From a virus, in the IMG/VR virus record IMGVR_UViG_3300031774_000103, positions 1 to 28,633 of that record: a DNA stretch of 28,633 nucleotides. The stretch is one strand, 5' to 3'. The translations under genes were made by a program, and so were the position numbers. Positions 4,482 to 5,633 of this stretch are shown in pieces. The notes beneath the pieces were generated by a model. The model was not told the DNA's origin, made no database searches, and saw only the letters and a program-made list of their open reading frames with translations. Numbering within the stretch: the first letter of the stretch is position 1; every line of letters starts with the position of its first letter.

Positions 4482-4734
4482 ACTGTCACAGGCATATGAA
4501 GACAGTAAACTTTTATACTTTGTGACTGATGGCGAAGGTAACTGTATGCTAGACAGAGTGACACAAGTAGACGCACAGATATATGCTATGAAGAATGGTT
4601 GGTCTATCGGTAGACACGATGTGTCACCGGTGACAAACTATCAGCCAAACGAGGACTTGCCTTTTTACAATGACGACGGCACTGCTATCACTTATGAGAA
4701 CAAAGACATACTCAATGAGGAGGATTTACAATGA
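4456..4734 (+). CDS. Early protein, 92 residues, unknown
   Basis: GAGGAG lies 8 nt upstream of the ATG at 4456. A second ATG six codons later (MSRLSQ) is a possible alternative. Soluble acidic protein: a central segment LLYFVTDGEGNCMLDRVTQV suggests a beta-hairpin, and the tail is rich in D and E. The 14-bp palindrome at 4622 is read here as SPVT, a frame different from that in the replication genes. The stop overlaps the ATG of the zinc-ribbon-like gene (ATGA). Unknown family. Confidence 0.82.
   Translation: MHKKPLMSRLSQAYEDSKLLYFVTDGEGNCMLDRVTQVDAQIYAMKNGWSIGRHDVSPVTNYQPNEDLPFYNDDGTAITYENKDILNEEDLQ
4622..4635. repeat. 14-bp palindrome TGTCACCGGTGACA, copy 4 (in a gene)
   Basis: Perfect copy inside the 4456 gene, read in the TCA-CCG-GTG frame. 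Confidence 0.85.
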
Positions 4735-4910
4735 GATGTAAGTGTTGTGATGCCTTGCTCAATGAATGGGAGTCTAAGGCAAAGGACCCTGCAGATAGAA
4801 CAAAATATTTAGACTTGTGCTCTGTCTGTAGATACCATTCCAATCCTTATTCTTTCTTAGATGATGACGAGGTGATAAAAAAAGAAGATATTAATGTTGA
4901 CATCGGTTGA
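4731..4910 (+). CDS. Small zinc-ribbon-like protein, 59 residues
   Basis: ATG at 4731 overlaps the previous stop; GAGGA lies upstream. The N-terminus MRCKCCDALL and the later LCSVCRYH give two paired-cysteine knuckles about 25 residues apart, a layout that would bind one zinc ion. The C-terminus is acidic. Small Cys4 proteins of this size occur in many T7-like marine phages and usually have no known role; binding of nucleic acid or host RNA polymerase is possible. It is the last gene before the non-coding RNA, and its stop codon overlaps the TTGACA of that RNA's promoter. Confidence 0.82.
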   Translation: MRCKCCDALLNEWESKAKDPADRTKYLDLCSVCRYHSNPYSFLDDDEVIKKEDINVDIG

Positions 4911-4936
4911 CAAATAGATTAAAATATTACTATAGA
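4907..4936 (+). promoter_or_regulatory. Promoter of the non-coding RNA
   Basis: Consensus -35 TTGACA (4907-4912), overlapping the stop of the previous gene, an 18-nt spacer and -10 TATAGA (4931-4936). The predicted start is near 4943, exactly at the foot of the first hairpin (4944-4972). Confidence 0.7.
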
Positions 4937-5000
4937 TTCAATTAAAGTGATAACCATAATAATTATTACTTTGGTTGAGTCTTAAGTAAGAGTGATTAGA

Positions 5001-5142
5001 GATACTGTAGCTCAGCTAGTGGGGAAGGAAGGGGGATACTCCTTGTGCAAACCGTCCTGTTACTAGATAAAGAGCGGTCATTAAGTCTGTTCTAGACTAT
5101 GTCTTAATGGCGTCGTCCCGGGTTCAAGTCCCGGCAGTATCA
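5001..5142 (+). tRNA. tRNA-like domain with insertions in the D-loop and anticodon loop; no clear anticodon
   Basis: Acceptor stem GATACTG (5001-5007) pairs perfectly with CAGTATC (5135-5141), with A5142 as discriminator and no encoded CCA. TA follows, then D-stem GCTC (5010-5013) with GAGC (5072-5075). The T-arm is perfect: CCGGG, loop TTCAAGT, CCCGG (5118-5134). An arm of 9 bp (5077-5085 with 5103-5111, one G-U) stands at the anticodon position but has a 17-nt loop. The D-loop is about 58 nt and forms its own branch: CTAGT (5016-5020) with ACTAG (5062-5066), AGGA with TCCT, and AGGGG-GATA-CTCCT. The domain is about 142 nt against about 73-76 for a normal tRNA. The surplus of roughly 68 nt is accounted for by about 50 nt in the D-loop and 18 in the anticodon loop. 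No canonical anticodon can be assigned, so decoding is doubtful. Confidence 0.5.
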
Positions 5143-5161
5143 TCTAATCACTTTTATATGG

Positions 5162-5200
5162 CTGTTGTGATTTCGAGTCCGTCACAGCAGTCTTTTTTTT
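5162..5200 (+). terminator. Rho-independent terminator of the non-coding RNA
   Basis: CTGTTGTGA (5162-5170) pairs with TCACAGCAG (5182-5190) with one G-U, an 11-nt loop, followed by TC and eight T residues (5193-5200). It ends 22 nt before the ATG of the ssDNA-binding protein, so the replication genes need readthrough or a promoter I cannot see. Confidence 0.85.
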
Positions 5201-5222
5201 CAGGGCTCCGAGGAAACAAACT

Positions 5223-5633
5223 ATGATAACTAAAGGTATAGCAAAGTATGTCTATCTAGACAGTACAGAAAAATTCAATGGTGAGGATACTGGTAAGTAC
5301 ACACTTACTGTCGCTGTTGATGACAAAGAAGCCAAAGCACTAGAGTCGGCAGGTGTTAAGGTTCGCACTATTCAGACAGAGGACGGAGGGTCTTACAAGG
5401 CACGTAAGTTCTCCACCAAGTATCCATTGTCTTTTGATATGGTGAAGATGGCTGAGGATGGTGAATCAATCGGACACGATTTTGGAGCTGAATCAGAAGT
5501 ACAGGTACTTTGGAAAGCAGGAAACGAACACCCTCAACACGGGGTCGCAACCTACCTCACTGCAGTTAAAGTATTGAAGCGTACCGAAGGGTACAAATCA
5601 CAGGATGCTGAGACTAGTGAGTTCTTCGCATAA
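5223..5633 (+). CDS. Single-stranded DNA-binding protein, T7 gp2.5-like
   Basis: 136 residues. GAGGAAA lies about 6 nt upstream of the ATG. A beta-rich body fits an OB fold: KYTLTVAVDD near 25, SYKARKFSTKYPL near 58 and a C-terminal ATYLTAVKVLKR strand. It ends in an acidic, aromatic tail (SQDAETSEFFA), the hallmark by which gp2.5 and other SSBs contact polymerase and primase-helicase. It is shorter than T7 gp2.5 (232 residues). Its place directly before primase-helicase is typical of T7-like phages. The last 29 nt overlap the start of primase-helicase in another frame, so the tail codons are doubly constrained. The assignment rests on composition, tail and synteny rather than a catalytic motif. 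Confidence 0.78.
   Translation: MITKGIAKYVYLDSTEKFNGEDTGKYTLTVAVDDKEAKALESAGVKVRTIQTEDGGSYKARKFSTKYPLSFDMVKMAEDGESIGHDFGAESEVQVLWKAGNEHPQHGVATYLTAVKVLKRTEGYKSQDAETSEFFA

Follow-up and report, generated by a model that had tools for sequence, protein, structure and literature searches.

A predicted tRNA-like cassette with a self-complementary loop in the leaders of phage replication operons

In the bacterial Y RNA YrlA, a tRNA-like module sits on a closing stem that is formed from both ends of the molecule, and the Ro60 orthologue is bound via this stem. The retroviral dimerisation initiation site of HIV-1 (DIS) presents, in the loop of a hairpin, a self-complementary hexamer flanked by purines. 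A tRNA-like domain of YrlA has been mentioned (PMC7790460). GOLLD, ROOL, and OLE are structured, homo-oligomerising RNAs, two of which (GOLLD and ROOL) occur in phages, and Kretsch and colleagues backed the symmetric kissing loops of OLE and GOLLD by palindrome switching (PMC12286853). Phage T4 offers a precedent for control of an mRNA by its own product, as the operator of gene 32 forms a pseudoknot 5' of the ribosome site, and translation of the SSB is repressed by the SSB itself (PMC535899).

Here, we describe an RNA cassette that recalls each of these systems, found in a marine podovirus-like phage fragment of 28,633 nucleotides, the whole of which is referred to as the window. Like YrlA, the cassette places a tRNA-like module on a closing stem, whereas it has no Rfam match, lies in a phage leader, carries a predicted kissing loop, and had no Ro60-type gene next to it among the ORFs read, and the likeness does not imply common descent. 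The palindrome-switching argument made for OLE and GOLLD can also be applied to it; yet GOLLD, ROOL, and OLE measure several hundred nucleotides with no tRNA-like core described, while the cassette is about 150-170 nt long, belongs to an mRNA leader, and is only predicted to dimerise. With the HIV-1 DIS it shares a flanked self-complementary hexamer in a loop, which here belongs to a tRNA-like fold, where the anticodon-like arm bears it, and is not a sign of common descent. The likeness to the T4 gene 32 operator, a pseudoknot 5' of the SSB ribosome site, concerns the leader around the cassette rather than the cassette itself, and is a likeness of layout only, predicted here.

Fold and covariation of the cassette

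The stretch in question (4943-5200; the leader elements and the downstream gene are all on the plus strand) is preceded by a small ORF (4731-4910) and followed by a gene for a small ssDNA-binding/annealing-type protein (5223-5633), the first gene of the replication operon, downstream of which lie primase-helicase and DNA polymerase A genes. In PHROG, the product of 5223-5633 matched phrog_4787, 'single strand annealing protein', weakly (E 1.7e-4), and the gene holds an operon place equivalent to that of the gp2.5-like gene of L164. While a sequence-only reading of this DNA had put a consensus promoter at 4907-4936, we found the best sigma-70-type match at 4897-4925 (TTGACA-17-TAAAAT; 11 of 12 positions, a consensus match only), from which we infer that the leader starts near 4932. 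The leader opens with a 5' hairpin (4944-4972) that is kept in relatives without the cassette. At this place, the window and all related SSB leaders carry a near-perfect palindrome, AAAGTGATAATCATTATGATTATCACTTT, directly after the promoter, which could be a DNA operator besides forming an RNA hairpin.

The cassette (4986-5157) contains no ORF. Its outer helix (4986-5000/5143-5157) encloses a tRNA-like core (5001-5141) consisting of a 7-bp acceptor (5001-5007/5135-5141), U8-A9 (5008-5009), a 4-bp D-stem (5010-5013/5072-5075), a D-loop helix (5016-5024/5056-5066), and a T-arm (5118-5134), and at the anticodon position it carries a 9-bp arm (5077-5111) with a 17-nt loop (5086-5102). The sequence-only reading had proposed the closing helix, acceptor, D-stem, T-arm, and a large D-loop insert at these same positions, which our analysis bears out; the 9-bp arm with its 17-nt loop also stands where it had been drawn, but is not part of the window's minimum-energy fold. 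Upon folding, the RNA of this stretch reached -93.5 kcal/mol, compared to -63.2 +/- 4.4 kcal/mol for shuffled sequences (z -6.85; 0 of 200 shuffles). The minimum-energy fold lacks the D-stem as well as the 9-bp arm, and the pair probability of the latter is ~0.2 in the window ensemble and ~0.9 in L004. The D-stem of the window rests on covariation, and its 9-bp arm is supported by how close relatives, e.g., L004, fold.

We found the tRNA-like fold, comprising the acceptor, D-stem, extended D-loop helix, T-arm, and long closing helix, in 12 distinct sequences. In a MAFFT alignment (n = 10), 98.5% of the cells in the acceptor, D-stem, D-loop helix, and T-arm were paired, and 11 of 27 pairs showed double-sided changes, while slid controls gave 0-2 such pairs and shuffled alignments 4.7 +/- 1.5; with L218 added, 93.5% were paired and 10 of 25 pairs had changed on both sides (slid controls, 0-2). 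The acceptor, D-stem, D-loop helix, and T-arm are, at the level of sequence comparison, supported by these compensatory changes, and the segments that had earlier been proposed to pair do co-vary across 10-11 homologues. The nucleotides matching U8, A14, G15, C48, U54, U55, C56, and A58 of the tRNA elbow, in a tRNA numbering assigned in this analysis, are invariant. The acceptor continues into the outer helix, the two together measuring 18-22 bp in the tRNA-like folds tested, and a bulged A (A5142 in the window) interrupts them in five of the 12 distinct members. In the remaining seven the combined helix runs without interruption, which speaks against the notion that RNase P and RNase Z recognise the RNA at A5142. 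Overall, folding and covariation indicate that the stretch is a genuine structured RNA with a tRNA-like core.

The acceptor, D-, and T-stems and the canonical elbow nucleotides expected of a functional tRNA are all present. A 7-nt anticodon loop with U33 occurs in no member, as type A arms have a loop of 17 nt and type B arms one of 23 nt that a second stem closes; a free 3' discriminator end for CCA is absent, with the acceptor running into the outer helix; and ARAGORN called no tRNA in this stretch. Because the loop, the end, and the gene finder all argue against it, we consider the cassette not to be a functional tRNA. We also rejected an ordinary or suppressor tRNA; the one spurious tRNA-Pyl call by ARAGORN ('Pyl/CUA'), on L160, reflects only the type A palindrome UCUAGA. 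A group I intron or another Rfam family was discarded as well, as there was no match and the cassette ends pair together, unlike intron ends. Searches of Rfam 15, with its Y RNA families included, returned no match at the gathering score or at a loose E-value, and we found no described RNA with this layout in the open-licence literature, which is weak evidence of novelty. The earlier view of a tRNA-like fold lacking a described relative, located upstream of replication genes and with co-varying paired segments, thus stands.

Distribution, leader context, and turnover

Scans with primase and SSB proteins yielded about 150 loci, and further members were obtained from context-free DNA patterns run over the whole viral collection and from a covariance model, R1, that was built on 10 of the 12 distinct members. 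R1 recovered L218 (5e-27) and L304 (6e-11), both outside its training set, and its top matches in two bacterial genomes were genuine tRNA-Phe and tRNA-Arg genes, providing an independent sign of a tRNA-like core. All members confirmed from context-free scans belonged to the leader of an SSB, a gp2.5-like, or an Erf gene, in unrelated phages: upstream of the gp2.5-like gene in L164/L167 and L304, immediately 5' of the Erf gene in L177, L180, L191, and L194, and, in L218, separated from the downstream Erf gene first by a hairpin and next by a small ORF. In the searched viral records, we did not meet the cassette outside the leaders of ssDNA-binding/annealing genes. Taken at the level of sequence, the comparison places the cassette in mRNA leaders that precede ssDNA-binding/annealing genes, and shows a tRNA-like core with a canonical T-arm, a long outer helix, and enlarged D and anticodon arms.

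Searching annotated phages with the window element gave no match, and the type B and L164 elements gave short matches only, largely to T-arms of real tRNAs. A model search of 190 alphaproteobacterial genomes, run without a positive control, returned none at 1e-7. Five pattern matches on bacterial contigs were attributed to chance, and weak model matches in L067/L137 and in the record of L155 were discounted as coding DNA.

Between the cassette and the segment that holds the GAGG ribosome-binding site and the downstream gene's start codon (5210-5225), 5160-5192 and 5203-5208 can form an H-type pseudoknot (5160-5208) that adjoins the SSB ribosome site, with stem 1 at 5160-5171/5181-5192, a U-run at 5193-5200, and stem 2 at 5175-5180/5203-5208. 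Stem 2 is compensated across SSB leaders, co-varying in most of them (GAGUCC/GGGCUC, GAGACC/GGUCUC, AAGACC/GGUCUU, UGAUGUC/GACAUCA, and others), and the pseudoknot is kept in SSB leaders with or without the cassette, including those of L164 and L304. What had been taken for an intrinsic terminator at 5160-5200 is better explained as stem 1 and loop 3 of this conserved pseudoknot, and was not called by a terminator scan with a loop limit of 8, the loop here being 9. In the window clade, the U-run is U8 and may add a terminator role; many relatives have an interrupted run and still retain the pseudoknot pairing. The sequence-only reading had further regarded the RNA as self-contained, a view that finds no support, as the homologues in Erf phages enter the ribosome site without a terminator and the window's hairpin belongs to the pseudoknot. 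The SSB-leader pseudoknot, with the ribosome site that it adjoins (5160-5213 in the window), is a likely autogenous operator of the T4 gene 32 kind. In L008, L010, and L015, which are SSB phages with a type B arm, an additional extended -10-like TGATATAATATTTAT, not present in type A, lies between the cassette and the pseudoknot.

Close relatives of the window differ in whether they carry the cassette. Within its clade, the cassette is present in the window, L002, L004, L005, L008, L010, and L015, and absent from L001, L003, L006, L007, L009, L011, L012, L013, and L024, whose leaders retain both the 5' and the downstream hairpins along with the ribosome site. L001, which is without it, is 98.4% identical to the window over 1,286 nt upstream and 99.6% over 2,111 nt downstream, and the cassettes of the window and L004 are 83% identical, compared to 97% for the downstream flank. 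Given this absence from L001 and the divergence from L004, these sequences argue that the cassette is accessory and fast-changing. Related Erf loci without a cassette exist as well: when L211 is compared with L210, the junction is clean and carries a repeat of three nucleotides, ATT. Target duplication was not consistent at cassette junctions. All four combinations of a long or short D-arm with a type A or B anticodon arm were seen, indicating that arms have been exchanged.

The anticodon-position arm and its self-complementary loop

The arm at the anticodon position occurs in five versions, namely type A (window, L002, and L004), that of L164, type B (L008, L010, L163, L177, L180, and L191), that of L218, and that of L304, each of which has a different palindromic hexamer in its apical loop: UCUAGA (5091-5096 in the window, where it is a predicted kissing loop), ACUAGU, GUAUAC, GUCGAC, and UUGCAA. 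In type B, L218, and L304, the hexamer forms part of an 8-nt loop of the form G-N6-A. From type B to L218, the stem changes from GUG/CAC to GAU/AUC and the loop from GUAUAC to GUCGAC, with both changes compensated. A palindrome at the equivalent place was present in 10 of 1,315 background 8-nt hairpin loops of the same phages, in a comparison where the pattern had been spotted before testing and L304 alone, which fits, was examined afterwards.

The loop thus stays self-complementary while its sequence changes, as a symmetric kissing loop would. If the hexamer paired inside a single molecule, just its outermost bases could take part, and hence the three kept complementary pairs point to intermolecular pairing, an argument that Kretsch and colleagues also make for OLE and GOLLD (PMC12286853). 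These patterns strongly suggest that the anticodon arm is a kissing-loop stem whose hexamer would allow an RNA homodimer to form. We rejected a mini-ORF in the type B arm (MKWVYTQKY) as a tag or leader peptide, since L218 keeps its length and pairing but not the stop. The sequence-only reading, partly right about the structure, missed the self-complementary loop, the presence/absence polymorphism, and the association with ssDNA-binding/annealing genes.

Possible roles and other leader inserts

Our leading interpretation, to which we give a probability of about 0.4, is that of an accessory, horizontally exchanged cassette in the leader of the phage replication operon that self-dimerises and acts in cis. 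We infer the action in cis on the ssDNA-binding/annealing operon from the gene association, which holds in unrelated phages. As leader transcripts and the ssDNA-binding/annealing protein build up, the leader would dimerise, perhaps chaperoned by that protein, and dimerisation would alter the stability or translation of the operon, adding to the effect of the core, T4 gene 32 operator-like pseudoknot at the ribosome site. Any such control by the cassette would be dispensable, as the cassette is missing from ~99% identical phages, and the small ORF between the L218 cassette and Erf counts against a cis role, as the lack of the 9-bp arm in the window's minimum-energy fold does against the kissing loop. 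We tentatively propose, at somewhat less than even odds, that the tRNA fold has been reused as a rigid scaffold that shows the self-complementary loop, such that leader RNAs pair only with their own kind. If true, the different hexamers would be separate self-recognition specificities, serving either to regulate the ssDNA-binding/annealing operon or in competition with relatives that infect the same cell, and the cassette would represent an undescribed viral RNA family joining tRNA mimicry to homodimerisation, adding a small modular case to the few natural RNA oligomers with palindrome switching. The ~99% identical phages without the cassette are natural 'knock-outs', which makes its function directly testable.

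The main rival, which we rank not far behind a cis-acting leader, is a trans-acting tRNA decoy, where a cut in the long closing helix by RNase III (or in the fold by RNase P) would free a tRNA mimic, stable and perhaps dimeric, to serve as a decoy for, or to inhibit, a host enzyme that binds tRNA, e.g., a tRNA-cleaving defence nuclease. Gain and loss among near-identical phages, faster change than in the flanks, and arm swaps would all fit an arms race, the 18-22 bp closing helix is RNase III-like, and the tRNA elbow nucleotides do not vary; yet, in the searched records, the cassette is restricted to leaders of a single gene kind, in Erf phages it lacks a terminator or promoter of its own, and the proposed processing site A5142 is not conserved. 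Clearly less probable is a mobile or selfish insert that spreads by recombination at leader sites and is merely tolerated, its fold being maintained by its own mobility or stability. Such an insert would be consistent with the clean empty and filled sites with the ATT repeat, with several unrelated inserts with similar paired ends at the site, and with the lack of an ORF, whereas the inconsistent target duplication argues against it and tolerance alone fails to explain the restriction to leaders, the conserved tRNA elbow, and the palindromes. We attach little weight to a folded leader of incidental shape that shields the operon mRNA from 5'-end-dependent decay: in Erf phages, the closing helix does begin only a few bases from where transcription is predicted to start, but leaders of the window clade, cassette-bearing or not, already possess a 5' hairpin, and the tRNA core and palindromes would be left unexplained. 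A decayed or interrupted ordinary tRNA gene, which the tRNA-like acceptor, D-, and T-arms and the model's matches to tRNA genes might suggest, is very improbable, as decay would break pairs, whereas covariation contradicts it and unrelated phages preserve, through compensatory changes, both the enlarged D-loop helix and the reworked anticodon arm.

Besides the tRNA-like cassette, the leaders of ssDNA-binding/annealing genes host further inserts, which we term types C, D, E, and F. Type C, upstream of the SSB gene in L025, L026, and L027 and at the leader position that the cassette takes elsewhere, is a structured insert of about 170-220 nt without an Rfam match, which has a hairpin loop with GUCGAC and a clean empty relative in L029. 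Type D (L043 and L044, also upstream of the SSB gene) is about 270 nt long and has similar paired ends and a bulged A, without a tRNA-like core and with no palindromic hexamer in its hairpin loops. Type E (L135/L136) is related to a stretch in L218: the sequence AGAACTTAAGKTGCGAGTTAATGTTTTGGTAGTTTTAAACTC... is common to the SSB-phage leader of L135/L136 and the Erf-phage leader of L218, which suggests an exchange of leader elements between unrelated phages. Type F, the insert upstream of Erf in L214 and L215, is possibly related to the tRNA-like cassette, as judged from borderline model matches (E 0.01-0.03). It has a tRNA-like T-arm with a compensated change from GGUGG/CCACC to GUUGG/CCAAC, as well as an extra hairpin and, at the D-arm position, a loop G[AGUACU]A.
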